This document shows positions 10,787-43,619 of a stretch of 64,000 bases of DNA, in pieces. This DNA comes from Zygnema cylindricum (lineage: Eukaryota > Streptophyta > Zygnematophyceae > Zygnematales > Zygnemataceae): assembly GCA_037447655.1 (NCBI GenBank), contig JBBHKE010001808.1:1-64000 (forward strand), written 5' to 3'. The notes under the pieces were generated by a model. The model was given only the letters and a program-made list of their open reading frames with translations. It did no database searches and was not told the origin of the DNA. The stretch's first letter is position 1, and every line of letters starts with the position of its first letter. The translations under genes and the position numbers were made by a program.

Positions 10787-13700
10787 ATGCTTTTGATTTT
10801 TTTTTCTTTGTTGTTAGTTGGCTGCTATGGAGACGAAGGAGGACCTTATTGTCCATCGCAAGAAAGGAAACCAAACGCTGGGATGGAGTTCAATATTCTC
10901 CTTTTTCTTTTCATTTTTTTTTAATTTTCAATCGGTCCAAGGTCAAACAAAATTTTGTCCCTTCTCTTTTTTGAAATTTTGAGAAATATTAAGTTTATGT
11001 ATGTCGATTCAACAATGTATACGGAACTTTGTTATCTTAATGTCTTTTATAGCGTCCTACTGAACTTACAATTTTGATTAGCAATTGATTATTTCAACGA
11101 TTTTCTTTTCACAAGCATTAACATATTGGGATGTACTATATTGTAGGCAAAGGTGACTGATCTCTCTTTCCATCTCTCCCCCACCCTCCTCCTCTACCTC
11201 TACCCTTTACCAGGTGGTTGCTGGTTGTCTCCGAACAGTACTTCTCCACCAAACTACTATGTCTACGGCTACGCTTTCACTGGAAATGTCTCTTCTGGTT
11301 GGTGGGTTTCAAGAGCCCAAGATTGCCACAATAATTGTCTCACCTACGGATACGGTTTCTTATTGAATCAACAAAGTGAAAATGTTGCCTGTTTTTGTTA
11401 CACGGACCAAATTACATATGGAGTCAAAGATCTGGGCTGGTACAACACACTATCATACGTTACTCTTTGTCCTCCTACCCCCTCCATTCTAGTGCCTCCA
11501 CCCCCAAGACCACGGCCCCGTCCTCCACCAAGGCGTCTCCCTCCTCAAAGTTCTTCACCACGCTCTCCACCCTCTCCTCCTCGCGCACCTCCTCCAAGAC
11601 TACCTCCTCTCCCACCCAGTCCACCTCCCCCAAAACCTCCACCTCCTTCCCCAAGATCTCCTCCCAGACTCCCTCCTCCGATTCCCTCGAAAGGTGATTT
11701 CATTCAAATATTTACCGACCCGTCAATTTATCATTTTCCCATTTTCCATTTGCTAGTTATTCGCATTTTATTTTGGAGAAGGGGACGTGAGAGAGGATTG
11801 CAAGACAGAAATTGGCAAGAGAGGGAGAGACACGAGGTGAAAGGGAGTCTTAGGTTGTTTATATAAGCCGATTGTAAATTATATGGGGAGAGGGAGAGGG
11901 GGGTTTAGGGGCGAAAAGGGTGAGAGATGGAGTGTTGTATTTCAATCATTTTAAGTCCATTGCCATTTCTCGCGTTCTTTCCTTTGTCTTTTCTTGTCCG
12001 TCTGTTTTGTTCTGACTGTCAATGCTTTTTCTGTTGCCTTGTCATGTTTTCTTCTTTTCGCTTTCCTTTCTTTGACATTTGTTACATAATGACATTCCTC
12101 CTGTCTTTTGATGATCTTATTTTCTCATTTTTTTAGGTCTCCAATGATCTTTCCTAGTTGTAATTTACATGCTGCTTTTTTTTATTTTTCCAATAATCTC
12201 ATTCTTTTACGTTCACCTTTGACTCGTGCTATCGCTATTTTTTTCTTTTTTTTTTAGTGTCTTCTTTAAGTCCCACGTTATTGTTTCCTTGTCTTTTTTT
12301 TGCAAAACATTCTTTCTTTTTTTCCGCTAATTTGCTTGTCTTCCTTCTTTCTACTCTTTGTATACTCCCTCGTAACTAACTCTCTACCCCCCACCACTCT
12401 CGACCCCCCTTCCTTCTCTCACTGTCTCCCTCTATCTCTCACTCAATCTCTCTTTCCCTCTATCCTTCCCTCCTTTCAGGTCCTTGTTGGTTGTCCCCTA
12501 ACAGTACTTCCCCACCAAACTACTACGTCTACGACTACGCTTTCGCTGGATATGCCTCTTCTGGCTGGTGGGTTTCGACGGCCCAAGATTGTCACGACAA
12601 TTGTGTGAGCATCGGATTTGGATTCTTACTACAACTACAAGGTGGAAGTTTGGCTTGTTTTTGTTACATGAGCCAAATTACTTATGGAGTCGAAAATTGG
12701 AACTTGGGAAACACAATTTCATATGTTACTCTTTGTCCCAATGTGCCTTCTCCTCCACCCCCTCCTCGTTCCCCACTTCCACCTCCTCCTCCTTGTTGGA
12801 TCCAACCAAATAGTACAAATCCGTCCAATTTCTACCAATACCCATATTACTATTCAAATGCTTACGACGGCGATTGGGGAAAGGACATTAGTGCAACAGG
12901 CACTGTTGGATGTGCTCGAGACTGTGAAAAACTCGGGTATGGATTTTTTGTTCAAGTACAAGAGTTTACCCCATACTGTTATTGCTATGTTCGAGAAGTA
13001 AATTATAGCTCTGCCCTCTCTGTCGATACCCCAACAGTGTCATATATTTACACGTGTCCTCCAGTAGATTATGGCCCATCCCCCTCTCCCTATTTTCCAT
13101 CTTGTAGTATCCCAAAAAATAGTACAAATCCCTCCGGATTTTTTTCTTACACTTACGGTTTCGACACATCCGACTACTTTAATTATGGCCCAATTTCAAG
13201 TTCCGTGGATTGCATGAATGGATGTCTGTTTCCATTTGGGTTTATGACATATTTAAGACGCGGTAGTCTAATTTGTGCTTGTTTTACGAGAAAAGTTGAT
13301 TATTCGAACGTATTTTACTGGCCAGATCTTACTTCATATGTGCCAAATTGTCCAGTAAAAACTGCCTTACCACCTCCCTCCCCTCGCAGTCTTCCTCGCC
13401 CTCCTCCTCTCATCTCCCCTTTACCAACAATTCATCCTCCTCCTCCTAAACATGCCCCCCCTCCAAGATTAAAGCCTCCGTCTCCTGCAAGGACCCCGCC
13501 TTCTCCTCCTCCCTCACCTCCTCTCTCTCCTCCTCCTCCCTCTCCTCTTCACTTTTCGCCTCGTGCTCCTCCTCGATTTCCTCCACCCTCTCCTCCTCGC
13601 TCTCCGCGTCGTGCTCCTCCTCGCTTTCCTCCACCCTCTCCTCCTCGCTCTCCGCCTCATGCTCCTAATCGCTTTCCTCCACCCTCTCCTCTTAGATTCA

Positions 13701-13795
13701 ACCCCCCTCCAAGGCCAAGGTCTCCTCCTAGGACCCTCCCTCCTCGAAGCCCTCCTCCTCCCTCTAGACCCCTCCCTCCCTCAAGGCCCGTCTGA
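10787..13795 (+). CDS. Secreted cysteine-module / proline-rich (extensin-like) protein, three exons
   Basis: Predicted extracellular or wall protein. Proposed exons are 10787-10850, 11214-11693 and 12480-13795 (stop TGA 13793-13795). Exon 1 gives a hydrophobic signal-peptide candidate (MLLIFFSLLLVGC). Its only phase-compatible donor, at 10850/10851, is weak. The other sites are good: acceptors CAG at 11211-11213 and 12477-12479 after long pyrimidine runs, and donor AAG/GTGATT at 11693/11694. Both introns are phase 1. Four ~85-residue modules begin CWLSPNST, CWLSPNST, CWIQPNST and CSIPKNST. Each has six cysteines in the order CW, DC, C, then ACFC-type (two), then a final C. This spacing recalls WSC-like carbohydrate-binding modules but is not a clear member. 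Proline-rich SPPP/PPR spacers separate the modules and form a tail of about 140 residues, as in hydroxyproline-rich wall proteins of green algae and plants. NST motifs offer N-glycosylation sites. Exons 2 and 3 are well supported; exon 1 is tentative. Confidence 0.75.
11694..12479 (+). other. Intron 2 of the wall-protein gene
   Basis: GT at 11694 and AG at 12478-12479, phase 1 on both sides. Joining K-G-P-C-W keeps the frame and places the second module directly after the first proline spacer. The last ~100 bp are strongly pyrimidine-rich and resemble the end of the preceding intron (11155-11213), consistent with duplication of exon plus intron end. Confidence 0.75.
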
Positions 13796-18592: not shown

Positions 18593-19680
18593 TGTTGAAA
18601 TTGAAATCTTTAGTTTTCAGTAGATGGAGCTATGAAAGAAGATTAAAGACTTCGAATATTTTAAAGAATGTGATATTGTAATTTTTACTTCTAATAGTGT
18701 TATAGTGACAAAATGGCAAGTAAGTCTACTGTACGTCTACAAGGACACGCGTCGGCAAAGGAATGGCAAGTAAGTGTATTGTACGTATACAAGGACACGC
18801 GTCGGCAAAGTAATGGCAAGTAAGTGTATTGTACGTCTACAAGGACACGCGTCGGCAAAGGAGGGACTATGCAAGTTTTATGGAGTAGCGTCGTTGACCA
18901 CTTAGACGCGTTGTGCATTTTACGAGCCGATTAACAAAATAGGACGAAGAGAATATAAACCACGTATCTAGGAATGTATGGTACAGTGAGCTATAGTGAT
19001 CGTTGATTGGCATCTTGTTGACGCACGTGATTTATGTGGGATCACAAGTGACGAAGCACACTCGTATGGACTCAGGTGCTTCGTCCTACACGACTACAGT
19101 CAGCAGGACACTAGAGACCACTACTGACTAAGCACCTGAAATATATATTGTACGGTCCTCTATTTTTAAATATTTCAAAAACAATGTTTTGTAGTTTTGC
19201 TATTAGAAAATAGTGTCACACTATTCAAATTACTAGAGAGTTGCAATTGGGTTTTTGGAAGTACTCACGGTAAAATGAAGTACAGTTTGATTACTTTGTT
19301 GTGGCATAGATTAGTACTGTAGGACAGTCACCAAAATTTGTGTGACCAATAGATACTTAATATGAGTACATAGTTTAGGACTTTGTCAAATTTGTATTAT
19401 TCAAGTCTTCGGATTATAGTAATCAAAGGCAAATTTTGTGAAATCTGTAGAGACTATCTTATTATTGACTTGGTCATTTGACGTACAACTTTAGGAACTG
19501 TTACTATAATGTGTATTCTGCTTGTGTGCTGAATTTGATTATGTTTAGACTTTTTTGTCACATTTTATCTCATCTGGAAGTTGGTTATTAAATAATGTGC
19601 TTCATAGCTTCTTTTGAGTAGATGTCAACTTCCACTACTACTGTTGGGTCTCCTCCTACAAGTGTGGTTGTACAACAACA
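18593..19680 (+). mobile_element. B-family copia LTR B1 with mismatched flanks
   Basis: Starts TGTTGAAATTGAAATC and ends ACAACAACA. Length 1088 bp, against 988-989 bp for the LTRs at 35527 and 46659; most of the excess is an internal triple repeat. The last ~60 bp carry an ATG (19622) opening MSTSTTTVGSPPTSVVVQQQ, the Gag N-terminus. The left flank CAATC is E-family RNase H and the right flank AAAAC is C-family RNase H, so no target duplication is present. Confidence 0.8.
18712..18861. repeat. Three tandem 50-bp repeats in LTR B1
   Basis: Units start AATGGCAAGTAAG at 18712, 18762 and 18812 and end in ACACGCGTCGGCAAAG. The other B LTRs (about 35647 and 46778) have one copy. The position is in the U3 part of the LTR, where promoter repeats occur in many retrotransposons. 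Confidence 0.9.
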
Positions 19681-20168
19681 AAAACATAGAGTGATGCAAG
19701 CTATGGCGACTTGCCAAGCCGAATGTCCACTACTGGATTTGTTTTGCAAATTGGAAACAAGACTTGATGTTGGAGCAACCAGCTTCATAAGGTCACGGCA
19801 CAATCTACAATAGAGTCAGAATACATAGCAACAAGTTTCGCTCTAAAGGAACTCTTATGGGTAAAGTCGTTGCTGGAAGAGTTAGGATTCATGCAGGTTG
19901 GTCCCCAAGTAATTTGGTGTTACAACCAGGCTTCCATTGCCATTGCCTCTAACCCTAGTCACCCCTTCAAAAGTAAGCACATGGATGTACGGTTACACTT
20001 TGTAAGAGAAAAAGTGTTTTCCAAAGTCATTAAATTATGTTATTTGTAATTTGCCAGATGCAAAAATGATTGCTAATATATTGACTAAAGCACTCCATGC
20101 CCCTAAATTAAAGTTTTCAAAGATGCACCAGGGCTAAGTGATTAGCAACGTCTAAAGCTTTAGGGGAG
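19681..20168 (+). pseudogene. C-family copia RNase H end (left unit)
   Basis: Encodes the RNase H end: SDASYGD-type start, WSNQLHKVTAQ, IESEYIATSFALKELLWVKS, a QVIWCYNQASIAIASNPSHP region where the catalytic CDN is changed to CYN, and a KALHAPKLK end. A polypurine tract, TTTAGGGGAG, abuts the next LTR. Stops and frameshifts are present. Sequence and breakpoint match 47647-48128. Confidence 0.8.
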
Positions 20169-21116
20169 TGTTGATTTGGAAAGCTATTAGCCTTAGGAAA
20201 TAGAGGTATGAGAGGGAGTTTCGGACTTAGAATATATTTTGGCCAAAGTCCTTTAATACTTACCTCTAATAGTATGACAGTAGCGAAAGTACGTGGGAGT
20301 GTATAGTACGGTAAAATAACACGTGTCGTCACTTCATCAATGCACAATTTTTTTGTAGAAACACATGGACAAACTGTTCCACGTGTCATATACCGAACGG
20401 ACGAAATCGAATGATCTAACGAATAAAGAGAAAGGCGGCTATTTGAGAAATGGTCTTGTATAGGACAACACATTTAAGGGTGATATGAATAACGTCAACG
20501 AACGAGATTCATCAAGGGACCACAAGTGACTAGACTGGCAAGTGCTTTGTGACAGTCGCATGGACGCATCCGGGCATTACTGATTCAGCAAGCGGCGAAT
20601 ATTTGTACGGTCGCTATTTGAAGATATCTGAGTAATATAGGTTGTACGATAGCTAATTTTTTTATAGTGTTACCAAACATATATAGTTTCTGGTGTTAGT
20701 AGGTTTTTCGACGTACCACTTAGGTACACATGTACAGTACCACTGTTTTCAGATAGTAATTTGTAATAAGACAATTATTTAGTAATACTCACTGTGGTTA
20801 AAAGACTAAGGAATTAGAATACTTCTTGTATCAAAACTTCTAGGTAGGAAAACTACAAACAATTGTTGGGAAAATTTTGATAGTGATTTGTGAAGTTTTG
20901 TTGGGTCAATTGTGTTGAAACTTTTTGGGAGCTGTCTGAGTTTGTGATACTCTATACTGCGATAGAGTTTTGTGGAATTTTGGTGTTTGTATCAGATTTG
21001 GTAAGCATTTGAAAACAACTGTTTGTTAGGATTCTTGATAGCTTCTGAGAGCATATCATGTCTACTTCTACTACTACTGCTGCTCCACCACCTGCATCGA
21101 TGGTTGTAAAATAACA
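20169..21116 (+). mobile_element. C-family copia LTR C1
   Basis: Starts TGTTGATTTGGAAAGC after a polypurine tract and ends AATAACA before the primer-site relic CGTTATGAGATTGTC. It therefore serves as 3' LTR for the RNase H on its left and 5' LTR for the gag-pol on its right: a tandem arrangement sharing one LTR. It carries the LTR-encoded Gag start at 21058 (MSTSTTTAAPPPA). Length 948 bp; partner LTR 48129-49054. Confidence 0.8.
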
Positions 21117-23107
21117 CGTTATGAGATTGTCATTAAGAATCCTTATCTTCTCATGGGAAAAATATGTTTATTGGGCGGATATGGTAAAGACTTACTTCAT
21201 GAATGTTAACCTTTTGGATATTTTGGATGGTTTCCTAAATGAATCAGATCCATCTTGGTCTAAGAACAATACACAGCCTCGGTGTATTCTAAAATTCTAT
21301 ATATATTTGAGGACTTGGCTATGTCTCGGATCAAAATGAAAAAGGCAATAGACATCTGGAAATCTCTTAAAAATGAGTATGAAAAATATAATTTCCAAGA
21401 AAAACTTCTATTGGTTGGAAAGAGTTGGGACTATAAGTACACTGGCGGCACAATAGCTGAGTATGGTAACAAGTTTCGTATTCTTATCGATGCACATGCT
21501 TGTGTAGGTGGCACATTTCCTTTTTTCGACAAGCTACATTGCTAATGAGAGGTCTCCCTAGTAGTATGAAAGGAGCTTATACCATGGTCAAACAAAAAGA
21601 TAAGGCTAGCTGGACTTTATAGTTAGCAATTAGTATTTTACTAGAGGAGGAAACTACGTCTAAAATTCTCACTTCTGAGAAAGTACAAGCTTACAATACA
21701 GACTTTGAGACAAAGGGTCAATTAATCAACAAAGAAATCAGTTTAATAAATAGAAAAACCATTTTAAACAATTTAATCAAGGAGGAAAGTGACTGTCTTA
21801 TAAGAATTGTTTGTATTGTAATGAAAGTGGTCAAGGATATAAGTACTTTTATAAGTTGAAAAATGTTAATGAAACAGGTTTATACAGGCCGGGATGTCAG
21901 CAAAGCCAATTTACCCAAAGCTTCACGAGACATGCACCTCGAGGAAATGCACTATTTTCTGCATTTTCATCAAACCAGGTGGAGTCCCTAAATCTTTCCG
22001 AGGAGGAAGAGGCGGATTTTTTTGTTATGTCTGCGGCAATGGACGACCCAAATGATACTGGTTGGATAATGGATACAGGAGCGTTAGCTTATATGTTTTA
22101 GAACAAGGCAATCTTTAAAAATCTGAAACTAATACATGAGATAAATATTTACTATGCATGTGGAATGAGTGTATAGACTTGTTATATAGGTGATGTATCC
22201 TTACCAGCTGACATAGATGGCCAGCAGTTCAAAGGACTCTTCGTAATGTCATATTTGTCCGAGAATTTAAGAAAAATTTGTTTTCTACTTCTTTGGTAGA
22301 AAGTAAATGCTTTGAGGTTAATTTGAAACATGGTCATTAGGTTGTTAGCAAAAATGGCAAAGTCGGAGTCACACGCATTAGAGATGACAACAAAATATAC
22401 TGTATGGATTCTGTTGACAATAAGAAAAATGACGTTCTGTATTCTAGTGCTTTGCATTCAGATGATTTGTGGCATAAAAGATTAGGCCATGTAATTTATG
22501 ATAGCTTGAGAAAGATGGTACATGCTGGCAAAATAGCAAGTGTCTCTATAACAAATCAGCTGGTTAAAACGTGTGATGGCTATGCATTAGGAAAAATACA
22601 TAGATTGACGTTCCCCAATGAGTTTGAACATCGGTCCACTAAACATTTACAACAAATCGGTCCACTAAACATTTACAACAAATTCATTCTGATGTTTTTG
22701 GTCTGCAAAGATACCATCTGTCGAGGGGATGAAATATATGGTCACTCTTAAAGATGATTTTTCTCGGTTTACAAAGGTATATTTCATGAAGGAAAATAGT
22801 GAAGTGTTTGGTCACTTCAAACACTATAAAGTTTCGGTTGACAACTACATAATCTGCCGATTTTACAACTCAGATCGGACAACGGTGGGGAATATACATC
22901 GAAGAAATTAGAAAACTTTTTACTCCAAGAAGGTATTACACATAAGTTGACTGTTTCTTATTCCCCGAAACAGAATGGAGTATCAAAGATATTAAATAGA
23001 ACCCGCACAGAGAGCTCTAAGTCAATGCTTGCTAATAAAGATGTGGATCCGAAATTTTGGGCTAAGGCCCTAAATTGGGCTGTCTATATTACGAATAGAT
23101 TAAGGTC
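21117..23107 (+). pseudogene. C-family copia gag, protease and integrase (decayed)
   Basis: The Gag region has YVYWADMV, NLLDILDG and IKMKKAIDIWKSL blocks in shifting frames. A nucleocapsid knuckle near 21811 reads YCNESGQGYKYF, with the zinc-binding His changed to Tyr. The protease motif is WIMDTGALAYM (22064-22097). A GAG-pre-integrase block (DLWHKRLGHVIYDSLRKMVH) and integrase follow, ending MLANKDVDPKFWAKALNWAV. A 26-bp unit is tandemly duplicated at 22631-22682. Integrase is interrupted at 23112 by a solo LTR and resumes at 24331. Many stops: not functional. Confidence 0.85.
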
Positions 23108-23112
23108 AAGAT

Positions 23113-24330
23113 TGAAATTCGATGGGTTCTATTCCCTCACAAAATTCGCAGATCCAAAGAACCTTATCTAGATAGTGTCGAATCCAAGTTGTTTCAAACC
23201 CAAATGACTAACACCTTGACAGTTAAAACCCCAAAGAAACTTCACCTTTGTGACACCTCAGTGAAATAACACTTTATGTGTGCTCAGTTCCACCTTAGAA
23301 TACAAAGTTAGAATATGAGTTTTGGATAACATTTCCAACTTTGAATTTCCCTTAAAAATGCAACCACCCTGGCAGGAAAAAACTCTCACCGACTACACCC
23401 TTTTGTAGCTTGGAATCCCTTGAGTAGGTAGTAAAAAGAATCACTGAAAATGTTTTACTGAATTAATAGTTATGGCTGGCCAAAATTTGGCTTTTATATA
23501 AGATGCTCTATGGGAGAGGCGGCTACCCACTAGAAATATTCTAAGTCCTAAAAGTCCTCGTAAGCCCTCTAGTACTGAGGTACAAACAAATCACAAGAGT
23601 GTACTGTACAAGAAAGTATAGGTGCGTGAGTACTTTTTGTACGGTCGATGTACCACATCCCAATAATGCGACCTTTGTCACATCCGGATTTCTTGTCTTG
23701 CGCTCCAAAGATTTCGTGAACCCGTATGAAGTTAACACGTGTCATCCGGAGTGGCGGCGTCCGCAAACCACCAAATTGTCTTTTCTACGAAGGCGGTGCT
23801 AACAACGGCCGTCCAATTGAATCGACTTTTAATACGAACCCTCGAAACAAATGTCATTAGCATTTGTTCCGTTGGATACTTAAAGTACATTTGTTTTTAT
23901 GCCCTACAAACGGTAATGTTGTTAAATGGAAATCCTACAAGTAATCATATAAATATCTATCAAACCCGATACATCGTAGCATTGGTCTTAGACCCAACGG
24001 CTAAAGCTATCGGCTATAGGTGGTTTGACAAAAGGTAGGTAGCAGGATAAAATCTTGGGTCCGTCAAATATCATTTTGGTAAAACTATCATTATCTACTT
24101 CTATATCTTTGGAGAGCCCAGGCAACCATGACTCTAGCTCTCTTTCCACCCTTTAGTGACTACAACACGTGCGGGGGCTTTGAGAAGGGGGCTTCGAGAA
24201 GGGGGTTAGAGGCAGACTGTCTTCGCTCTTTTTCTACAAGTGTGGGGGTTGGGAGAACGGAGTAAGAGGCAGAGTGTCTTTGCTCTTTTTCTATCCTAAT
24301 ATATGCCTAGAAAATACTGAAATATCAACA
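23113..24330 (-). mobile_element. D-related solo LTR inserted in C integrase
   Basis: Begins TGAAATTC and ends ATATCAACA, 1218 bp. It is flanked by perfect 5-bp duplications AAGAT (23108-23112 and 24331-24335). Removing it rejoins the integrase sequence. It shares the GGGAGAGGCGGCTACC block and layout with the D LTRs, in the same minus orientation. No internal domain remains, so it is a solo LTR left by LTR-LTR recombination. Confidence 0.85.
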
Positions 24331-25251
24331 AAGATCAGTAGAGACTACACCAAATGAAGTTTAGACTGACAAGAAACCTGATGTTAGTCATTATAAAGTC
24401 TTTAGTAGTAAATGCTTCATTTTAGATAATTTAAAAGGTAGATGGAAAATGGATCCTAAAGGTTTACCGGGTATTCTGCTAGGATATGATGATCACTCTA
24501 AAGGATATCAGGTCTATGTTCTTCAAAAGTAATGGATAGTTGTGGCTCGAAATAACGTTGTGAAAGATGAACTTGATTTGGTAGATTTATTCACACTGAT
24601 AGAAGTACACAAAAAGGAAAAAGAAACAGGAAAAATTACAGGAATATAGGAACGGACGGAACCACAGACAAGGAAAGAATGCGAGGGATGCTTCGATCTC
24701 AGCCTAGAAAATTCCAGGGAAAAAAAAGATCCAGTAGTTTACTACAAGCAAGTAATCACTCTGCCTACTCGATAGCCTCAAGGGAGCCTCTAACTATCCA
24801 GGAGGCCTTCTCATCACGGGAGCGGAATCACTGGATTAATGCAACAAGCAATGAAATGACGTTAATGATGGAAGCTCAGACATGGTAGCTTGTGGATCTT
24901 CCTCATGAACAAAAATCAATTGGCACCAAATGGGTATTCAAGGTGAAGTTAAACCCTGATAATACTATTGAACGATAAAAGGCTAAACTTGGGGCAAAAG
25001 GGTAAAATTAAAAAGAAGGAATTGATTTTGAAGAAACATTTTCTCCAGTTGTAAGATTTCTTATATTTACGATTTTGTTGTCCGTAGCTGCTGGAGAAGA
25101 TATGGAAATACATCAAACGGATGTAAAAATGGCCTTTTTGCATGGAGAATTAGAAGAGAATATTTATATACAACAGCCTGAGATGCATGCGGAACTAGAA
25201 AAAGAGCATTTGGTGTGCAAACTGCTAAAATCTTTGTATGGCGTGAGATGT
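24331..25251 (+). pseudogene. C-family integrase end and reverse transcriptase (N part)
   Basis: Resumes after the solo LTR with VETTPNEV and VSHYKVFSSKCFILDN, then GILLGYDDHSKGYQVYV. RT starts with REPLTIQEAFSSRERNHW, followed by TKWVFKVKLNPDNTIE and MEIHQTDVKMAFLHGELEEN. It stops after KLLKSLYG, where the TRIM element begins (25252). In-frame stops occur. RT of this element appears to continue at 34673 beyond the A-family array. Confidence 0.85.
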
Positions 25252-25303
25252 TGTTGATTTCCAAGAAATCCGAGATTCGGCATGTCTCACACTTAGGAAA
25301 ATT

Positions 25304-25374
25304 GAGCCGGCCAGGGTTCAAACCTGGGACCTTTCACAATAGCTGCGAACGCACTACCACTGTGCCACCAGCTC
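25304..25374 (-). tRNA. tRNA-like cloverleaf in the TRIM LTR (left copy)
   Basis: On the minus strand the 71 nt fold as a 7-bp acceptor stem (GAGCTGG with CCGGCTC), D stem GCAC/GTGC, anticodon stem TTCGC/GTGAA, five-base variable region and T stem CCAGG/CCTGG with a 7-nt loop. The A box is TGGCACAGTGGTAG and the B box GGTTTGAACCC. Position 33 is G rather than U and no CCA is encoded, so it is probably not a translating tRNA. A TTTT run lies 3 nt downstream, a Pol III terminator. Confidence 0.55.
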
Positions 25375-25587
25375 GATGTAGAGACTGGCGGGTCCGTACC
25401 CTTTTCTTACGGGCGGCTCGAGTATGTATATTCCATATTCTACCCCGTATTGAACCGGCTTCACGTGCCAATCCAACACCCCCCCTCACAGAAAAGCCGG
25501 TCAAACCATCCGATATCCGGCTGGCTCCGATATCATGTTGATTTACAAGAAATCTGGGATTCGGCATGTCCCACACTTGGGAAAATT

Positions 25588-25658
25588 GAGCCGCCCAGGG
25601 TTCGAACATGGGACCTTTCACTTCAGCTGTGAACCCACTACCACTGTGCCACCAGCTT
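25588..25658 (-). tRNA. tRNA-like cloverleaf in the TRIM LTR (right copy)
   Basis: Same 71-nt unit in the other LTR. B box GGTTCGAAC is intact in the loop, and the anticodon stem is TTCAC/GTGAA, fully paired. The acceptor stem has two mismatches and the T stem one. This copy has decayed more than the left copy and the solo LTR at 43620. Confidence 0.45.
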
Positions 25659-25762
25659 GATGTAGAGACTGGCGGGTCCGTACCCTTTTCTTACGGGCGG
25701 CTCGAGTATGGATATTCCATATTCTACCCCGTATTGAACCGGCGTCACGTGCCAATCCAATA

Positions 25763-28515
25763 GGTTTATGAAACTTTTGCAACTCATTCATTCTGATGTT
25801 TTTGGCCGTGCAAAGGTACCATCTGTCGAGGGGATGAAATATATAGTTACGTTTACACATGTTTTTTCAAGGTTTACTAAGGTCTACTTCAGGAAAGAAA
25901 AGAGTGAAGTCTTCACTCATTTTCAACACTACAAAGTGTGGGCGGAGAAACTACACGGTCTGCCAATTTTGGAGCTCAGATCGGACAATGGCGGGGAATA
26001 TACGTCAAAAGAGTTTGAAAACTTCTTAATCAAGGAAGGTATCAGTCACAAACAAATTGTTCCATACTCACCGTAGCAGAATGGGGTCTCAAAAAGACTA
26101 AATAGAACCATCACGGAAAGCTCTAGGTCCATGCTTGCAGATAAAAACGTAGATCCGAAATTATGGGCTGAAGCATTAAATTGTGACTTTATATCAAAAA
26201 TAGGATAGGTTCAAGATCAGTAGAAACCACTCCGTATGAAATCTGGACGGGTAGAAAGGCGGATGTCAGTCATTTCAGAGTCTTTGGAAGTAAATGCTTT
26301 ATTTTGGATACGTCGAATGATAGATGGAAAATGGAACCTAAGGGATTGCCGGGCATTTTATTAGGATACGATGATCACTCTAAAGGTTATAGAGTATTTG
26401 TTTTTGAGAGATAGAAAATCATTGTAGCAAGGAACATCGTTGTCAAAGATGAACTAGACTCGATAGACCTATTTAAAATGACAGAGCAGCAGAAGAAGCA
26501 AAAAATACAGAAATATGTCATTTTAGATAGCATCCATAATATAGTCCCATAGATGCAAAATTCACCAGTGGTAACGCCAACATCGTAGCATAATCGAGTT
26601 CCACAACAAGTTCGTTTCGAAGCGCAACAACAACAGTCACTGCCTACGGATCACAACCAGCACAATAAGCGCAATGCACGAGATCCAACAATTTCTGCCT
26701 CAGAATTTCCGGGGGGAAAAATATCTAGTAGCCGCCTGCAAGCAAGTTCTCACTTTGCCTACTCAGCATCCTCAAGGGAGCCTTTGACCATCCGGGAAGC
26801 CTTCTCCTCACCGGAGCGGCATCACTGGATTGAGGCGGCAAACGCTGAAATGCAGTCGATCATGGAGGCTCAAACATGGGAGCTTGTGGACCTTCCTCCG
26901 GATCAAAAAGCGATCGGCAACAAATGGGTATTCAAGGTGAAGTTAAATCCAGATAATACCATTGAACGATACAAGGCAAGACTTGTGGCAAAGGGATATA
27001 ATCAAAAAGGAAGGAATTGACTATGAAGAAACATTTTCTCTTGTTGTAAGATTTCCGTCAGTTAGGATTTTGCTATCTCTAGCTGCTATAGGAAATATGG
27101 AAATACATCAGATGGATGTAAAGACGGCCTTTTTGCATGGAGAACTAGAGGAAACCATTTACATGCAACAACCTGAAATATATGCAGAACCAAGAAAATA
27201 GCATTTAGTATGCAAACTGCTAAAATCTTTGTACGGCCTAAAACATGCCCCAAGGCAATAGAATCTAAAACTTGATGACCTTAACTGGCTTAGGATTTAA
27301 AAGATAAGTTCTGATAACTCTGTCTTTGTAATAAAGAGTGAGGATAGAATGGTGTATATAGCGGTATACGTAGATGATTTATTATTAGTTAGCAGATCAA
27401 TGGCTGAAATTAACAAAATTAAAAATGCTTTAAAATCACGGTTCGAGATGAAAGACCTCGGTGAGGCAAAATATATTTTGGGTATCCAAGTAGAGAAGGA
27501 CAAGAAAAACAGATTGATGAAATTGACTCAAAATGAGGCTATTGGAAACATGTTAGATGAATATGGAATGTGGGGGGCAAAAGGATGTCTAACTCCAATG
27601 GAATTTCGGCATAAGTTAGAGGGGGAAGAAACACAACCTGGTGTTATTGTCAGTGAAATTTTTGATTCAGGGGAGGATGATTCTATAACACTGATACCTT
27701 ACAGACACATAGTGGGAAGTTTAATATATTTCATGAACTGTACCCGTCGGGATATCGCTGCTGCAGTTGGGGTACTTAGTTAAAGTCTGGAGAATCTGAG
27801 GAAATCTGACCGTGATGCAGCAAGAAGAGTGTTAAGATACTTGGCAAGAATCAAAGACCTCAAACTCACACTAGGCGGAAGAGAAGTGAAGCTGCAAACA
27901 TGGAGTGATGCAAGCTATGGCGATATGCCAAGTCGAAAATCCACCACGGGATTCGTTCTCCAAATTGGGAACGGGACTTGCTGTTGGAGCAGCAAACTTC
28001 AAAAGGTCACGTCACAATCGAGGATGGAGTCAGAATATATGGCAATGAGCTCGGCCCTGAAAGAACTCCTATGGGTGAAATCCATGTTGCAAGAATTGGG
28101 ATACATGCAGGTTGGTCCACAAGTGATCTGGTGTGATAATCAGGCTGCCATTGCCATTGCTTCTAACCCAAGTCACCACTTCAAAAGCAAGCATATAGAT
28201 GTAAGATTACACTTTGTAAAGGAAAAAGTTTTCTCTAGAGTGATTAAATTATGCTATTTGACAGATACAAAAATGGTTGCTAATATGCTCACTAAAGCTC
28301 TTCCTGCTCCTAAGCTGAAGTACTGTAAAGACGCAGTGGGATTAAGTGAATAGGTGAGTTGCTTCACTGCTATATTGCCATGCTGCGCTAGTCCAATAAC
28401 GAGAACGTAGTGGGAAAAAGTGACTTGTTTAAATTGCTACGTTGCTATGCTCTGATGCTGCGCTAATTCGACATCCAAGCTGCGCTAGCATACTGAGTCT
28501 AAAGCTTTAGGGGAG
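25763..28515 (+). pseudogene. A-family copia unit A0: integrase, RT, RNase H
   Basis: Starts within integrase (LIHSDVFG, LRSDNGGEYTSKEFENF); the usual catalytic Glu region reads QNGVSKRLNR, with Glu replaced by Lys after a stop. VSHFRVFGSKCFILD, RT (KAIGNKWVFKVKLNPDNT, MEIHQMDVKTAFLHGELEET, VYIAVYVDDLLLVS) and RNase H (SDASYGDMPSRKS, RMESEYMAMSSALKELLWVK, CDNQAAIAIASN) follow. Stops and shifts interrupt it, although RNase H 27829-28353 is open. It is very similar to 31000-33556. gag and protease were lost at the TRIM junction. It ends in polypurine tract TTTAGGGGAG before LTR A1. Confidence 0.85.
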
Positions 28516-29468
28516 TGTTGTTTTTGGAAAGCTTTAAGTCTCAACAAATTTATAGGACGGCGAAAAAAAGATCTATTGCGACTTGCGTCGTCAATTGAAG
28601 CATAGTGCAGGTTTTTGAATGGTACCGACAACGCAGCTGCAACGCAGATGGAACAAGCGCAGCTGCAGTTATTTTTGATATGGCTTGTACGGACGAACGC
28701 AACTTCCAACGCAATGGGACAAACGCAACTGCGGACATTTTGGTATAAGACAACGCAGTTGCTACGCAACATGACAAACGCAGTTGCGGCAGTTTTCGGT
28801 ATGGGATAGCGCAGCTGCTACGAAGCTGCAGATATTGAATGTGATCAAGAATCAAGCAGCGCTGCTACGGTTGATATGAATCAAGTCAACGAACGAGATT
28901 CATAAGAGAATAATTAAGTAACTCAACAGCCGGATGGACGTACCCAGACAATTGTCACTAAGCTAGGCGACCAGTATTTGAACAAATCACCTGTATAGGA
29001 CTCTCAGTAATATTGTTTGTACAGTTAAAGATTAATTAAAGCGTGATTAGGTGCACTTAGACCTTAGTGGCAGTTTAGTTCTTTTGGACGTATCTTTTAG
29101 GAACACTTATATCGGCGGTACAACACTATATAGTAGGAAAAGAGAGTGAAGAGCGTAAGACTTATGACGTAGAACATTTTATGTATCGAGACTTCGAGAC
29201 TGTGTAATCTGTAGACTGTTTTTGGGAAACTTTTGAGTTGCATATCTTGGTGTTGGATCAATTGAGCTTAAACTTTGGGAGTTGTCAGTCTTTGTTATAT
29301 TCTATATTGTGGTATAGTTTGAAGCAGTTTGGTTCATTGTATCAGATTTGGTGAGCTGTAGAAAACAACTGTTAAAAAGGATTCTTGATAAGCTTCCGTA
29401 AGTGATATTATGTCTACTTCCACTACTACTGCTGATGCTCCACCTGCTCCTGTGGTCGTAGAACAACA
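28516..29468 (+). mobile_element. A-family copia LTR A1 (shared between two units)
   Basis: 953 bp, TGTTGTTTTTGG...GAACAACA. A polypurine tract lies on its left and a primer site relic (GTTTATGAGCCTGTC) on its right, so it joins A0 and A1 as one shared LTR. U3 holds degenerate ~60-bp repeats rich in CGCAGCTGC and ACGCAACTGCGG (28620-28830). A Gag start codon lies at 29410, 59 bp before the LTR end. Confidence 0.85.
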
Positions 29469-30380
29469 GTTTATGAGCCTGTCATCAAGAATTCCTATTT
29501 TCTCGGGAGAAAAATACATGTATTGGGCGGATATGGTGGAAACACACTTCGAAAATGTTAATCTTTTGGATATTTTGGATGGTTCACTCGCGGAATTGGA
29601 TCCGTCTTGGTCAAAGAAAAATTCGCAAGCTCGATCAATTTTGAAATTCTGTATTTCAGAAGAATTGGCTATATCACAATAAAAATGAAAAAGGCGATCG
29701 ATATCTGGAAATCTCTCAACGATGATTTTGAAAAGGCTAATGTTCAGGAAAAACTATTTTTGGCTGGACGAATTTGGGACTACAAATACACAAGTGGCAC
29801 AATGGCAGAATATTGTAATAAATTTTGAATACTAATAGACTCTCATGCTTGTGCAGGCGGATTTTTTCCTCAGTTTCAGCAGGTTCCTCTACTAATAAGG
29901 GGTCTTCCTAATACTATGAGAGCAGTGTCTGATAGGGTGAAACAAAAAGATAAAGCTAGCTGGACACTACAGTTAGCTATTAATTTGATATTGCAAGAGG
30001 AGGCAGATTCTAAAATTCTTAATGGTGAAAAACAAGTAGAAGCATTTAGCACAGAATTTGACAAAAAAAATCAGTTTAATCACAATTAGGATCAATTTAG
30101 ACAGTTTATTCAAGAGGAAATAGACAATCAGTCAATGCTTGTTTTTACTGTAATGAAAAAGGTCATGGATACAAATTCTGTCCTAAGCTTAAGAGAGCTA
30201 ATGAAACAGGTCTATATAGGCCTAGATGGCAGCAGAGCCAGTTTCATCAAGGCTTCACGGGATCATCACGACGAGGAAATGCCCTATTCTCGGCGTCTTC
30301 ATCTCATCACGACGAGTCTCTTTCACTCTCTAATGAGGAGGATGATGATCTATTTGCTATGGCGGCAGCGATGGAGGGCG
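29410..30380 (+). pseudogene. A1 copia Gag, start codon inside the LTR
   Basis: The frame from 29410 reads MSTSTTTADAPPAPVVVEQQ inside the LTR and continues through the primer site into SRIPIFSGEKYMYWADMVET and NLLDILDGSLAELDPSW. It stops at 29682 after a frameshift and continues in other frames (MKKAIDIWKSL, KLFLAGRIWDYKYTSGTMAE). The nucleocapsid knuckle CFYCNEKGHGYKFC (about 30139-30180) has perfect CX2CX4HX4C spacing. Gag packages the RNA in virus-like particles; this copy is broken by at least two shifts. Confidence 0.85.
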
Positions 30381-31800
30381 GGAAAGACAATGGATGGATA
30401 ATGGACACGGGAGCGTCGGCCAACATGTGTTGGAACAAGGCAGCTTTCAAAATTCTGAAATCAACACAAGAGAAAAATATCTATTATGCATGATGAATGA
30501 GTGTTCAAACGCAGGCTTTAGGTGATGTCTCCTTACTAGTTGATGTAGGGGGAAAGGCTGTTGAGAGAACTCTTCATAATGTTCTCTATGTTCTAGATTT
30601 TAAGAAAAATCTCTTCTCCACTTCTTTGGTAGAAAGTAAAGGGTTTGAGGTCAATTTGAAACATGGCAGGCAAGTTGTTAGCAAAAATGGGAAAATTGCA
30701 GTTACGGGAACAAGAAATGCCAGCAAAATGTATCGAATGAATTTGCCCGATAATAAAGAAAATGATGTTTTGTATTCCGGTGCACTATCCTCAGATGAGC
30801 TGTGGCATAAAAGGTTAGGCCATGTGAGTTATGATAGTATGAAAAAGATGGTTACTGCTGGTAAAATAGAAGGAGTCACATTGTCAAACCAGTCACCTAA
30901 AACGTGTGATGGGTGTGCACTAGGAAAAATACACAAATTACCGTTTCCTCAGGAGTTTGAACATAGGTCTATGAAACTTTTTCAACTCATTCATTCTGAT
31001 GTTTTCGGCCCTACAAAGGTTCCATCTGCCGTGGGGATGAAATATATGGTTACGTTTACCAATGATTTTTCAAGGTTTACTAAGATCTACTTCATGAAAG
31101 AAAAGAGTGAAGTCTTCACTCATTTTCAACACTACAAAGCGTGTGCGGAGAAACTACATGGTCTCCCAATTCTGGAGCTCAGATCGAACAATAGCGGAGA
31201 ATATACGTCAAAAGAGTTTGAAAACTTCTTACTCAAGGAAGGTATCAGTGAATAACTCATTGCTTCATACTCTCCGGAGCAGACTGGGGTCTCAGAAAGA
31301 CTAAATAGAACCATCACGGAAAGCTCTAAGTCCATGCTTGCAGATAAAAACGTAGATCCGAAATTATGGGCTGAAGCATTAAATTGTGACTTTATATCAA
31401 AAATAGGATAGGTTCAAGATCGGTAGAAATGACTCCGTATGAAATCTGGACGGGTAGAAAGGCGGATGTCAGTCATTTCAGAGTCTTTGGAAGTAAATGC
31501 TTTATTTTGGATACGTCGAATGATAGATGGAAAATGGAACCTAAGGGATTGCCGGGCATTTTATTAGGATACAAGATCACTCTAAAGGTTATAGAGTATT
31601 TGTTTTTGAGAGACAGAAAATCATTGTAGCAAGGAACATCGTTGTCAAAGATGAACTAGACTCGATAGACCTATTTAAAATGACAGAGCAGCAGAAGAAG
31701 CAAAAAATACAGGAATATGTCATTTTAGATAGCATCCATAATATAGTCCCATAGATGCAAAATTCACCAGTGGTAACGCCAACATCGGAGCATAATCGAG
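30381..31800 (+). pseudogene. A1 copia protease and integrase
   Basis: Protease motif WIMDTGASANMC at about 30393-30430. A 252-codon open frame from 30497 covers DVGGKAVERTLHNVLYVLD, the GAG-pre-integrase DELWHKRLGHVSYDSMKKMV, the CDGCALGK zinc-binding pair and the integrase core start LIHSDVFGPTK. The second catalytic Asp lies in LRSNNSGEYTS, where Asp has become Asn, and the frame stops at 31255. PEQTGVSERLNRTI keeps the catalytic Glu. The integrase C-terminal region (VSHFRVFGSKCFILDTSNDR) follows at about 31460. Inactive as it stands. Confidence 0.85.
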
Positions 31801-32735
31801 TTCCCCAATAAGTTCGTTTGGAAGCGCAACAACAACAGTCACTGCCTACGGATCGCAACCAACGCAACAACCGCAATGCACGAGATCCGACAATTCCAGC
31901 CTTAGAATTTCCGGGGGGAAAAATATCTAGTAGCCGCCTGCAAGCAAGTTCTCACTTTGCCTACTCAGCATCCTTAAGGGAGCCTTTGACCATCCGGGAA
32001 GCCTTCTGATCACCGGAGCGAAACCAGTGGATCGAGGCGGCAAACGATGAAATGAAGTCGATCATAGAGGCTCAAACATGGGAGCTTGTGGACCTTCCTC
32101 CGGATCGAAAAGCGATCGGCAGCAAATTGGTAATCAAGGTGAAGTTAAATCTAGATAATACCATTGAACGATACATGGCCAGACTTGTGGCAAAGGGATA
32201 TAATCAAAAGAAAAGAATTGACTTTGAAGAAACATTTTCTCCTGTTGTAAGATTTCTGACAGTTAGGATTTTGCTATCTCTAGCTGCTATAGAAAATATG
32301 GAAATACATCAGATGGATGTAAAGACGGCCTTTTTGCATGGAGAACTAGAGGAAACCATTTACATGCAGCAGCCTGAAATGTATGCAGAACCAGGAAAAG
32401 AGCATTTAGTATGCAAACTGCTAAAATCTTTGTACGGCCTAAAACAGACCCCGAGGCAATGGAATCTAAAACTCGATGAATTCTTAACAGGCTTACGATT
32501 TCAAAGGATAAGGTCTGTTCACTCTGTCTATGTGTTAAAGGGTGAGGATGGAATAGTGTATATAGCGGTATACGTAGATGATTTACTATTAGTTAGCAAA
32601 TCAATGGCTCAAATTAACAAAATTGAAAATGCTTTAAAATCACGGTTCGAGATGAAAGACCTCGGTGAGGCAAAATATATTTTGGGTATCCAAGTAGAGA
32701 GGGACAGGAAAAACAGATTGATAAAATTGACGTAA
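31801..32735 (+). pseudogene. A1 copia reverse transcriptase (long open stretch)
   Basis: A linker with Gln-rich residues, then REPLTIREAF, and a 227-codon frame 32052-32735 containing [77 protein letters not shown] and the catalytic YIAVYVDDLLLVSKS. The YVDD motif of copia RT is intact. A stop at about 32733 separates it from RNase H. One of the best preserved pol stretches in the window. Confidence 0.88.
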
Positions 32736-33556
32736 AAGAAGGCTATTGCAAACATGTTAGATGAATATAGAATGCGGGGGGCAAAAGGATGTCTAACTCC
32801 AATGGAATTTGGCATAAGTTAGACGGGGTAGAAACACAACCTGGTGTTATTGTCAATGAAATTTTTGAGTTAGGGGAGGATGATCCTATGACATTGATAC
32901 CTTACAGACAGATAGTGGGAAGTTTAATATATTTCATGAACTGTACCCGTCCGGATATTGCTACTGCAGTTGGGGTACTTAGCAGAAGTCTAGAGAATCT
33001 GAGGAAATCTGATCGTGATGCAGCAAGAAGAGTGTTAAGATACTTGGCAGGAACCAAAGACCTGAAACTCACACTAGGCAGAAGAAAAGTGAAGCTGCAA
33101 ACATGGAGTGATGCAACCTATTGCGATATGCCAAGTCGAAAATCCACCACGAGATTCGTTCTACAAATTAGGAACGGGAATTGCTGTTGGAGCAGCAAAC
33201 TTCAAAAGGTCACGGCACAAGCGACGATGGAGTCAGAATATATGGCAGCGAGCTCAGCCCTCAAAGAACTCCTATGGGTGAAACCCATGTTGCAAGAATT
33301 GGGATACATGCAGGTTGGTCCACAGGTGATCTGGTGTGATAATCAGGCTGTCATTGCCATTCCTTCTAACCTAAGTCACCACTTCAAAAGCAAGCTCATG
33401 GATGTAAGATTAAACTTTGTAAGGGAAAAAGTTTTCTCTAGAGTGATTAAATTATGCTATTTGCCAGATACAAAAATGGTTAATGATATGCTCACTAAAG
33501 CTCTTCCTGCTCATAAGCAAAAGTACTGTAGAGACGTAGTGGGATTAAGTGAATAG
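32736..33556 (+). pseudogene. A1 copia RNase H (open from 32789)
   Basis: A frame of 255 codons, 32789-33556. It has SLIYFMNCTRPDIATAVGVLSR, KRVLRYL-type AARRVLRYLAGTKDL, SDATYCDMPSRKS, MESEYMAASSALKELLWVKP, VIWCDNQAVIAIPSN and DMLTKALPAHKQKYC. The acidic RNase H residues D, E, D and D are visible in these blocks. It degrades the RNA strand during reverse transcription. Polypurine tract TTTAGGGGAG follows at 33709-33718. Confidence 0.88.
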
Positions 33557-33718
33557 CTGAGTTGCTGCACTGCTATACTGCCATGCTGCGCTAGTCCAAT
33601 AACGAGAACGTAGTGGGAAAAAGTGACTTGTTTAAATTGCTACGTTGCTATGCTGCGATGCAGCGCTAGTTCGACATCCAAGCTGTGCTGGCATACTGAG
33701 TCTAAAGCTTTAGGGGAG

Positions 33719-34672
33719 TGTTTTTTTGGAAAGCTTTAAGTCTCAGCAAATTTATACGATGGCAAAAAATAGATCTATAGGGACACGCGTCGTCACTTGA
33801 AGCACAGTGCAGGTTTTCGAATGGTACTGACAAGCAGCTGCGACGCAGATGGAACAAGCGCATCTGCGGTTATTTTTGATATGGCTTGTACGGACGAACG
33901 CAACCTCCGACGCAACGCGACAAACGCAACTGCGGACATTTTGGTATAAGACAACGCAGGTGATACGCAACATGACAAACGCAGTTGCGGCAGTTTTCGG
34001 TATGGGATAGCGCAGCTGCTACGAAGCTGCAGGTATTTGAATGTGATCAGGAATCAAGCTGTGCTGCTACGGTTGATATGAATCAAGTCAACGGACGAGA
34101 TTTCATAAGAGAATAATTAAGTAACTCAACAGCCGGATGGACGTACCAAGACAATTGTCACTAAGCCAGGCGACAAGTATTTGAACAAATCACCTGTATA
34201 GGACTCTCAGTAATATTGATTGTACAATGATAGATTAGTTTTAGCGTGATTAGCAGCACTTAGACCTTAGTGGCAGTTTAGTTTTTTTGGACGTATCTTT
34301 TAGGAACACTTGTATCGGCGGTACAACACTATGTAGTAGGACAAGTGAGTGAAGAGTATAAGACTTAGGTTGTAGAACATTTTTTATGTATCCAGACTTC
34401 CAGACTGTGTAATCTGCAGACTATTTTGGGGAAACATTTGAGTTGCATATCTTGGTGTTGGATCAATTGAGCTGAAAATTTGGGAGTTGTCAGTCTTTTA
34501 TATATTTTATATTGTGGTATAGTTTGAAGCAGTTTGGTTTATTGTATCAAATTTGGTAACTGTAGAAAACAAGTGTTTAATAGGATTCTTGATAAGCTTC
34601 CGTAAGTGAGATTATGTCTACTTCCACTACTATTGCTGATGCTCCAACTGCTCCTGTGGCCGTAGAACAACA
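33719..34672 (+). mobile_element. A-family copia LTR A2 (3' LTR)
   Basis: 954 bp, TGTTTTTTTGG...GAACAACA, close to A1 along its whole length, including the CGCAGCTGC repeats and the Gag start at 34614. Right flank GATGT (34673-34677) is C-family RT. GATGT also lies directly left of the TRIM at 25247-25251, possibly the original target duplication of the A array. Confidence 0.85.
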
Positions 34673-35526
34673 GATGTATGCGGAACTAGGAAAAATTGCA
34701 TTTGGTGTGCAAACTGCTAAAATCTTTGAATGGCCTAAAACATTTGAATGGCCTAAAACAGGCCCCAGATAATGGAATGTGAAGCTTGATGAATTTCTAA
34801 CCAACTTAGGATTTAAGAGGATAAGTGATGATCACTCTGTTTACGTTATAAAAGGTGAGGATGGGATAGCTTACATAACAGTGTATATAGAAGATTTGTT
34901 ACTAATTAGTAAATCAATGGCTGAAATCAATAAAATAATTAAAGCAGATTTAAATTCAAGGTTTGAGATGAAAGATCCCGGTGAGGCGAAATAATTTTGG
35001 GCATTGAGGTAGAGAAAGAGATTAAAAGAAAAATATAGTAAAAATAACTCAGAAAGAGGCTATTGGAAACATTTTAGATGAGTATGAACTGCGGGGGGTA
35101 AAAGGAAATGTAACTCTAATGGAGCTCCAACATAAATTAGAGGGTGATGAGACCTAGACGGGAGTCATCGTTAATGAATATCTAGAGTCAAGGGAGGATG
35201 ATCCTATGACAGTGATACCTTACAAAGAGATAGTGGGAAGCTTAACATATTTAATGAATTGCACCCATCCAGATATTGCTGCAGTAGTTGAGGTACTTAG
35301 TAAGAGCTTGGAAAATCCGAGAAAATTTGACCGTGATGCAGCAAAGCTTAACATATTTCTTAAATTGCACCCGTCCAGATATTGTTGTAGCAGTTGAGGT
35401 ACTTAGTAGGAGCTTGGAAAATCCGAGAAAATCTGACCGCGATGCAGCAAAAAGAGTCGTGAGATATTTGGCATGAACTAAAGATCTCAAATTTACCCTA
35501 GGGGGAGAAGAAGTAAAGCTACAAAT
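34673..35526 (+). pseudogene. C-family RT and start of RNase H (middle piece)
   Basis: RT resumes after the A array: KLDEFLTNLGFKRISDDHSV, IAYITVYIEDLLLISKS (YVDD changed to YIED), SRFEMKDPGEAK. RNase H begins with TYLMNCTHPDIAAVVEVLSK. An 18-bp unit is duplicated at 34725-34760 and a 106-bp unit at 35240-35451. The sequence is cut at 35526 by the B element and resumes at 47647. Confidence 0.8.
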
Positions 35527-39423: not shown

Positions 39424-41105
39424 CTCCCCTTATTTTATAGTCTAGTTTTATTTTTTCTTTTAATCCACACCTTTCTCTACAATATTTTAACTTAGGAGAT
39501 GGCACAAGTTTGGTCATCATATCTGCCACCATTTCCCAATCACTTTTATACACAAGATTCACAATTTTGATTTGAATCTTTTCTTTTACATAACTTAATC
39601 TAATGTCCATAAGTTTAGCCTTGAAATGTTGTTTTATATTGGCGGCAATTAGAATGTCAGCCTAATTATCACAAAACACTTCATGTACTCCCTCCTTGAT
39701 ATACCCCAATTCTTGCAATAATGACTTAACCCACATTTGCTTTTTCACTGCAGAACAGGATGCCATATATTCAGCCTCCATAGTGGATTGAGCAACCACT
39801 TTTTGTTGCTTGCTACTCCAACAGCAAGCTCATTTCCCCACATACATCACATATCCAGTAGTGCATCTTCTCATAGGTGCATCCCCATAACAGACATCAC
39901 TCCAAGTAGTGATTTGAGTGTGCTCCCCTCCAAAATGCAACCATAAATCCCTTGTTCCCACCAGATATCTCATGACTCTCTTGGCTTTCTCCCAATCTCT
40001 CTTCCTACGATCATTTAGACTCCTACTGAGGACTCCAACTGTTGTTGATATGTCCGGCCTAGTACAATTCAAAAAGTAAATTAAGCTTGCTACGTAGTAC
40101 AATTCAAAAAGTAAATTAAGCTTGCTACAACCTGTCTGTAAGGAATAGACTTCTTAAATTGTCTCTTTTTTGGACTCATTCTATATTCTAAGATCATCAC
40201 TCCTCCTTCTACACTCCCATTACTTTATTTCTCCAAGTCCATGGAGTGTTACAACTATTTGCCTTTTCTATTTGAAAATTTTCAACCATATTCCCTATAG
40301 CTTCTTTTTGAGTAAGTCTGATAATCTTCTTCCCCTTTATCTCTCTCCATTTGGATTCTCATAATGTATCTTGCCTCCCCTAAATCCTTTACCTCAAACT
40401 TGCTTCTAAGATCCTTATTTTACGATTTGATCTTTTCAATAGACTTACTTAACACCAGCAAATCATCCACATATATTGCAATAAACATAACACCATTCTC
40501 ATCCTCAAACATATAAATCGAATTTTTAAAACTGATCTGGATATATCTTTGACTAGTGAGAAACTCATTTTGTTTATTATTCCATTGTTTCGGGGCCTGC
40601 TTCAATCCATATAAGGACTTTATTAGTCGGCAAACTTTACTCTCTTCTCCTTTCTCTAAAAATCCCCCAGGTTGCCGCATGAAGATTTCGTCCTCTAGCT
40701 CACTATTTGGATTCTCATAATGTATCTTCCCTCCCCTAAATCCTTTACATCAAACTAGCTTCTAAGATCCTTCTTTAACGATTTGATCTTTTCCATAAAC
40801 TTACTTATTACCCGGAAGTCATCCACATAAATTGCAATGAAAATAACATCATTCTCATCCTTAAACATATAAATCGAATTTTTATAACTGATCCGGATAT
40901 ATCCCAGACTGGTGAGAAACTCATCTTGTTTATTATTCCACTGTCTGGGAGCCTGCTTCAGTCCATATAAGAACTTTATGAGTCGGCAGACTTTACTCTC
41001 CTCTCTTTCCTCTACAAACCCATCAGTCTGCTGTATGAAGATTTTTTCCTCTAGCTCTCTATCGAGGAAGGCGGTCTTAATATCCATCTGGTGTATTTCC
41101 ATTTC
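39424..41105 (-). pseudogene. D RNase H and RT, with an internal duplication
   Basis: Minus strand. RT: MEIHQMDIKTAFLDRELEEK, CRLIKFLYGLKQAPRQWNNK, MFKDENDVIFIAIYVDDFRV. A 356-bp stretch of RT is tandemly repeated (40351-40706 and 40707-41060), so the LYGLKQAP to YVDD block occurs twice, the second time as FIAIYVDDLLVLSKS. RNase H: LIYFLNCTRPDISTTVGVLS, KRVMRYLVGTRDLWL, SDVCYGDAPMRR, and a VADMMTKLVPSPKLKYC end. A 35-bp duplication lies at about 40061-40130. Not functional. Confidence 0.85.
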
Positions 41106-43008: not shown

Positions 43009-43619
43009 AGTGCTTGATCAATGGGTGAATACAAAGGTCTAGATTTGAAAATCTGGGCTGAAGCCCTTAACAATGCTGTTTATATTAAAAACAAGATTGT
43101 CTCAAGGACTGTTAACACTACACCTTATGAGCTGTGGACACGTAAAAAAATTTATGTTAGTCACTTTAAAGTCTTTGGCAACAAGTTTTTTGTTATGGAT
43201 AGTTCACAGGATAGATGGAAAATGGAGGCAAAGAGCTTAGCAAGGATACTTATGGGATATGATGAGCATGCCAAAGGTTACAAAGTTTATCAATTAGTTT
43301 AACAGAAAGTAATTATATCCAAAAATATATAGATTAAAGATGAATACGATTCAATTGATCTTTTCAAGGATTCAAACAAATCGCAGAAATAGCAATTGCA
43401 AGAGTATGTCATCTTTCATCACATACAACCTGTTCTCTTTCCATTACAATCACCTCTCCTAGATGCCTCAAATTAAATACCTACTCGGATAGATCAAGCT
43501 GTTCCCGCTTGAGATTCGCAGGATGCCGACAATTACAGCCTCAAAATTTCCGTGGGGAAGGAGATCTGGCAGCCGTCTTCAAGCAAGTTCTCATTTTGCT
43601 TTCTCTAACAAGTTCTCAT
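43009..43619 (+). pseudogene. B-family integrase C-terminal part and start of RT
   Basis: Picks up where 38434 stopped: LDLKIWAEALNNAVYIKNKI, TPYELWTRKKIYVSHFKVFG, DRWKMEAKSLARILMGYDEH, then stops and a linker. RT N-terminal region begins near 43555 (GSRLQASSHFAF). Interrupted by the small solo LTR at 43620. Confidence 0.8.

Follow-up and report, generated by a model that had tools for sequence, protein, structure and literature searches.

The locus at 25252-25762 raises the question of what kind of mobile element can be only 511 bp long and yet carry, within its LTRs, sequence that resembles a tRNA gene, and of how such an element might replicate. The window, by which we mean the whole 64-kb stretch of DNA analysed here, had earlier been read from its letters alone, and this sequence-only reading had proposed a miniature LTR retrotransposon (TRIM) in which each LTR includes a Pol III unit resembling a tRNA. 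Our answer, which taken as a whole we hold with good confidence, is that the locus contains a 511-bp Helenus-type TRIM that would be mobilised by proteins of probable Copia type and copied through a Pol III cycle, and that this particular copy has most likely been altered by a nested deletion.

Anatomy of the element and its solo LTR

The features of the two-LTR element, and of the solo LTR that belongs to the same family, are as follows.

25252-25762, minus strand: TRIM element, 511 bp, without protein-coding capacity
25536-25762, minus strand: 5' LTR (sense), 227 bp, first bases TA and not TG
25522-25535, minus strand: PBS-like sequence TGATATCGGAGCCA, following the sense 5' LTR with zero spacing
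25479-25535, minus strand: internal region, 57 bp
25479-25489, minus strand: polypurine tract GTGAGGGGGGG, abutting the start of the 3' LTR
25252-25478, minus strand: 3' LTR (sense), 227 bp, TG...CA ends
43620-43848, minus strand: solo LTR of the TRIM family, 229 bp, TG...CA ends, within a Copia relic
43615-43619: target duplication CTCAT, first copy, adjoining the solo LTR
43849-43853: target duplication CTCAT, second copy, adjoining the solo LTR at its opposite edge

Repeat comparison bears out the coordinates and lengths given previously for two 227-bp direct repeats around 57 bp; the two LTRs differ at 17 of 227 positions (92.5% identity). The polypurine tract is likewise where it was said to be, immediately 5' of the 3' LTR in the sense orientation. 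The proposed primer site of tRNA-iMet type also holds, in that TGATATCGGAGCCA, at the LTR edge, agrees in 12 of 14 positions with the complement of the initiator-tRNA 3' end. Two more 12/14 matches to this motif occur elsewhere in the 64-kb window, and so the weight of the site comes from its exact position, while its two mismatches count against the proposal of iMet priming. Self-priming by the element's own tRNA-like unit was also considered and rejected, the PBS fitting iMet better as judged from the PBS sequence only.

The family is represented in the window by one two-LTR copy and one solo LTR (a profile of the three LTRs matches only those three in 64 kb), and within the same 64 kb there is no additional copy of the 57-bp internal region. 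Exact stretches of the LTR or of its tRNA-like unit gave no match in viral contigs, and one exact stretch gave none in genome contigs, both being mainly viral and prokaryotic DNA.

The solo LTR shows 16 and 17 differences per 227 from the two LTRs at 25252-25762. The sequence-only reading had staked its case on TG/CA ends, 5-bp duplications and cloverleaf stems that pair, and the solo LTR has all of these; at the two-LTR copy it fares worse, since the flanks read GATGT and GGTTT (plus orientation) and the sense 5' LTR starts with TA. Two Copia relatives have a single CTCAC at the place that matches the solo-LTR insertion. Some caution is due over the CTCAT duplication, as TTCTCAT is present a second time in the left flank of the solo LTR, within a local duplication. 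Together, the anatomy and this second copy with its 5-bp duplication support a TRIM with a tRNA-like unit in its LTRs.

The tRNA-like unit: promoter, passenger or accident

The tRNA-like units and the T-runs beside those of the two-LTR element are located as follows.

25303-25374, minus strand: tRNA-like unit of the 3' LTR, 21/21 cloverleaf pairs, CTA at the anticodon position, Rfam tRNA 49.1 bits, called by ARAGORN
25298-25301, minus strand: TTTT of the 3' LTR just past the tRNA-like unit, candidate Pol III terminator
25587-25658, minus strand: tRNA-like unit of the 5' LTR, degenerate, 17/21 cloverleaf pairs
25582-25585, minus strand: TTTT of the 5' LTR, just past the tRNA-like unit
43672-43743, minus strand: tRNA-like unit of the solo LTR, 21/21 pairs, GTG at the anticodon position, Rfam tRNA 54.5 bits, called by ARAGORN

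It had been claimed that each LTR of the element folds into a cloverleaf. This is right for the 3' LTR, with its full set of pairs, its ARAGORN call and its Rfam score, and wrong for the 5' LTR, where 17/21 pairs, the lack of an ARAGORN call or of any Rfam match at E<=10, and a minimum-energy fold that is not a cloverleaf mean that the structure is not found in each LTR of the two-LTR element. The dimensions given earlier, 71 nt with a TTTT run 3 nt past the end, need correcting, as the called unit is 72 nt long and in all three LTRs the T-run starts after one further nucleotide. The A box, B box and TTTT attributed to each LTR are indeed present in all three, the solo LTR included. The A box TGGCACAGTGG is identical throughout and departs at one position from the 12-base pattern used; the B box reads GGTTCGAACCC in the solo LTR and is one base off in the other two. 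Scored against the pattern GGTTCGAANCC, the B box has no mismatch or a single one in every LTR, and against GGTTCGANTCC the solo LTR shows a single mismatch, with no match within one base in the 5' and 3' LTRs.

Across the whole 64 kb ARAGORN calls two tRNAs, at 25303-25374 and 43672-43743; each lies on the minus strand, within an LTR of this family. Local scans with Rfam RF00005 match the same two units with E-values of 1.8e-09 and 3.5e-11 respectively; the whole-window scan at the gathering threshold reported 43672-43743 and not 25303-25374. The minimum-energy fold of the solo LTR unit is a cloverleaf, and that of the 3' LTR unit is not a plain one. A tRNA-like fold that arose by chance in an ordinary TRIM might account for a 5' LTR unit without a cloverleaf fold and for modest folding-energy z-scores (3' LTR unit -2.25, 5' LTR unit +0.47, solo LTR unit -1.00), but such E-values speak against it, as does the absence of any ARAGORN tRNA call among 4000 dinucleotide shuffles of the two intact LTRs, and we give this explanation practically no credence.

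A tRNA-derived SINE, present as a dimer or tandem repeat in place of an LTR element, would also supply A and B boxes, since SINEs of this kind (SINE2) share the tRNA-like promoter. However, they are without LTRs, PBS or PPT and are moved by non-LTR retrotransposons, whereas here we find TG/CA ends, a PBS and a PPT exactly at the LTR edges, and a solo LTR with a 5-bp duplication. A SINE has its tRNA head at the 5' end, but the unit described here begins at base 105 of the 227-bp LTR; the SINE interpretation is highly improbable.

A stronger alternative, though still on the unlikely side, is that the unit is a passenger, derived from a SINE or tRNA that inserted into the LTR of a TRIM driven by Pol II from U3. 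The three pairwise comparisons of LTRs give 9/72 differences in the unit vs 8/155 in the rest of the LTR, 6/72 vs 11/155, and 5/72 vs 11/155; the unit is thus no better conserved than its surroundings in any pair, and selection on it is not apparent in these copies. A passenger would also be consistent with the TTTT directly after the unit and with the CACGTG near the start of all three LTRs, readable as a Pol II element. Set against this are an A box unchanged in all three LTRs, a cloverleaf intact in two of them, and the absence of TATAA or TATAT from the sense strand of all three; moreover, Helenus elements recur across many lineages with conserved A and B boxes (PMC10886601).

Helenus and related elements

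The element and its solo LTR fit Helenus, a known kind, an assignment set by anatomy against the description in PMC10886601. The earlier suggestion that a tRNA-like TRIM is not a standard described class must consequently be given up, since Helenus was defined by Kojima in 2024 and grouped with Cassandra and Ajax as TRIMp3 (PMC10886601). The companion idea of a hybrid between a TRIM and a SINE has fared better, as the same origin, SINE insertion into a TRIM LTR, is proposed for Helenus in that paper, which also warns against concluding that Helenus has Pol III function before experiments validate it.

Helenus combines a tRNA-derived unit in TRIM LTRs with a short internal region that holds a PBS and PPT, and with solo LTRs (PMC10886601). 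All these features recur here: tRNA-derived sequence is a full cloverleaf with an Rfam match in two of the three LTRs, and homologous if degenerate in the third; a PBS and PPT lie between the LTRs; and 511 bp of non-coding sequence with a 57-bp internal region falls within the limit of <1000 bp used in the screen of PMC10886601. Fungal and plant Helenus families have 5-bp duplications (PMC10886601), which we see as CTCAT/CTCAT at the solo LTR (with TTCTCAT repeated in the left flank), and not at the two-LTR copy (GATGT/GGTTT), where the left flank looks deleted. Two further likenesses are with the fungal families, in which iMet priming is mostly by the anticodon loop and in some by the 3' end, and some of which yield tRNA-Sup-CTA or His predictions (PMC10886601). 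The only plant family in that paper, Helenus-1_SMo, differs in its proportions, with 120-bp LTRs and an 85-bp internal region against 227 and 57 bp here.

Cassandra is similar in having the Pol III promoter and terminator of a small-RNA gene in each LTR, and the PBS given for it in PMC7215508, TGGTATCAGAGC, equals the first 12 letters of the iMet motif used here. However, the LTRs of Cassandra contain 5S rRNA, whereas those described here are tRNA-like; whole-window and local Rfam scans found no 5S rRNA match in them, the tRNA family being the only one matched. Ajax shares the TRIMp3 design and 5-bp duplications, but is derived from (partial) 5S and known from two nemerteans (PMC10886601). The accessible main text of a TRIM survey of 48 plant genomes (PMC4717578) contains no word beginning with tRNA, and among the matches listed (titles and abstract starts) PMC10886601 was the only literature on tRNA-like units in TRIM LTRs.

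Probable nesting of Copia elements and a proposed replication cycle

The two-LTR copy is embedded in Copia sequence, and in explaining its structure we need to account for the missing target duplication and the aberrant 5' LTR terminus. The relevant features are these.

21524-25242, plus strand: left flank, formed by Copia relic A as far as the reverse-transcriptase region, matching other Copia copies in pieces
25247-25251: GATGT immediately left of the block 25252-34672, a candidate for the target duplication of Copia B
25763-34672, plus strand: right flank, made up of tandem Copia B sequence, with B1 present from the integrase region onwards and followed by B2 with its 3' LTR
34673-34677: GATGT at the right edge of the block, where Copia reverse-transcriptase sequence like that of relic A resumes
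54478-60752: Copia C, with LTRs of 0.9 kb at 54478-55378 and 59862-60752, 89% identical

Relic A has piecewise matches to other Copia copies, mostly at 65-82%, which reach 25242, and 25763-29469 is 93% identical to about 30963-34673. The 3' LTR of Copia B ends at 34672, and the sequence that resumes beyond it aligns with 25182-25242 over 62 bp at 92% identity. With 76 occurrences of GATGT in the 63,996 positions of the window, a chance match at a given place has a probability of about 0.1%. The TRIM edge has TGTTG in common with the start of the Copia B LTR (28516), and TGTTGATTT in common with the Copia C LTR. The last three plus-strand bases of the right LTR (ATA) are also present in a Copia relative, which means that the TA in place of TG at the 5' LTR may be flank and not mutation.

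The most likely account is that Copia B, nested in Copia A, held the two-LTR copy, and that a deletion from the start of the B 5' LTR to the TRIM edge took one flank. Copia B would have inserted into Copia A, duplicating GATGT, with the TRIM sitting in Copia B; a deletion between the TGTTG at the start of the B 5' LTR and that of the TRIM edge would then have removed the 5' part of B along with one TRIM flank. Given the 62-bp overlap, this account needs a short tandem duplication to have existed already in Copia A. Under it, the 7.5% divergence of the LTRs could be an age, on which we do not rely.

Recombination between family members lying in two separate Copia copies would also dispose of the duplication, and is in keeping with flanks that come from different Copia copies and with LTRs that are as far from one another (17/227) as from the solo LTR (17 and 16/227). 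We nevertheless think it unlikely, and rank nested insertion and deletion above it, because GATGT at both edges of 25252-34672 and the resumption of Copia A-like sequence fit nested insertion. An assembly error at the junction is less probable again; the surroundings are very repetitive, but the GATGT edges of the block match.

Other repeats and genes in the window were noted in passing. Copia 3' halves with LTRs form a 3.7-kb direct duplication (93%), 5.2 kb apart and in tandem, in 25760-34673 with GATGT on both sides; a 2.3-kb dispersed repeat (18812-21120 and 46778-49058, 89% identical) overlaps Copia 3' sequence; and a 356-bp unit is present in two tandem copies (87% matches) at 40349-41062, in a region with a minus-strand Copia-like frame. 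Copia C has outer flanks of GCAAC and GCGAC (4/5 alike), and its internal region begins with GGTTATGGGC, resembling an anticodon-loop iMet primer site; Copia C would then prime differently from the TRIM. Matches to the Copia reverse-transcriptase protein were at most 55% identical among the matches listed (120 of 7862), with plants and Phytophthora among the names given. At 50374-50841 Pfam recognises the C-terminal dimerisation domain of a hAT transposase (Dimer_Tnp_hAT). Open frames at 11147-11863 and 12380-13792 encode Cys/Tyr-containing repeats followed by long Pro/Ser-rich stretches, reminiscent of extracellular wall proteins; neither gave a convincing Pfam match, 12380-13792 yielding nothing beyond a sub-threshold motif, and the latter frame, which has a proline-rich tail, had no match in the protein database or PDB.

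Returning to the TRIM, we propose a replication cycle built on its layout. Pol III would start at the A/B-box unit of the 5' LTR. The TTTT just past this unit is expected to stop many transcripts in the same LTR, and an element-length RNA would therefore need Pol III to read through it on occasion and to terminate at the T-run that the 3' LTR carries. Such a transcript would be about 361 nt long (25658 to 25298) and have a tRNA-like unit at each end, making the unit the R repeat that is needed for strand transfer. The 3' end of an initiator tRNA would prime the minus strand at the PBS, the G-rich tract would prime the plus strand, and integration would leave a 5-bp duplication. The proteins that copy this non-coding TRIM of about 0.5 kb would come from an autonomous element, probably of Copia type; the 64-kb window yielded no such partner. 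Each of these steps, from Pol III initiation to iMet priming and Copia-type mobilisation, is predicted from sequence. That the tRNA fold serves as both promoter and R region, with Pol III making the genomic RNA from the 5' LTR unit to the 3' LTR's T-run, and that this happens in a host lineage without earlier reports of Helenus, is a conjunction that we advance tentatively.

Since the two tRNAs that ARAGORN calls in the 64 kb both turn out to be LTRs of this family, tRNA prediction in such genomes needs transposon masking. The layout of the element offers a testable proposal for how a Pol III-driven LTR element could obtain repeated RNA ends, and with this locus Helenus gains a compact family, which may come from a lineage outside the published list.
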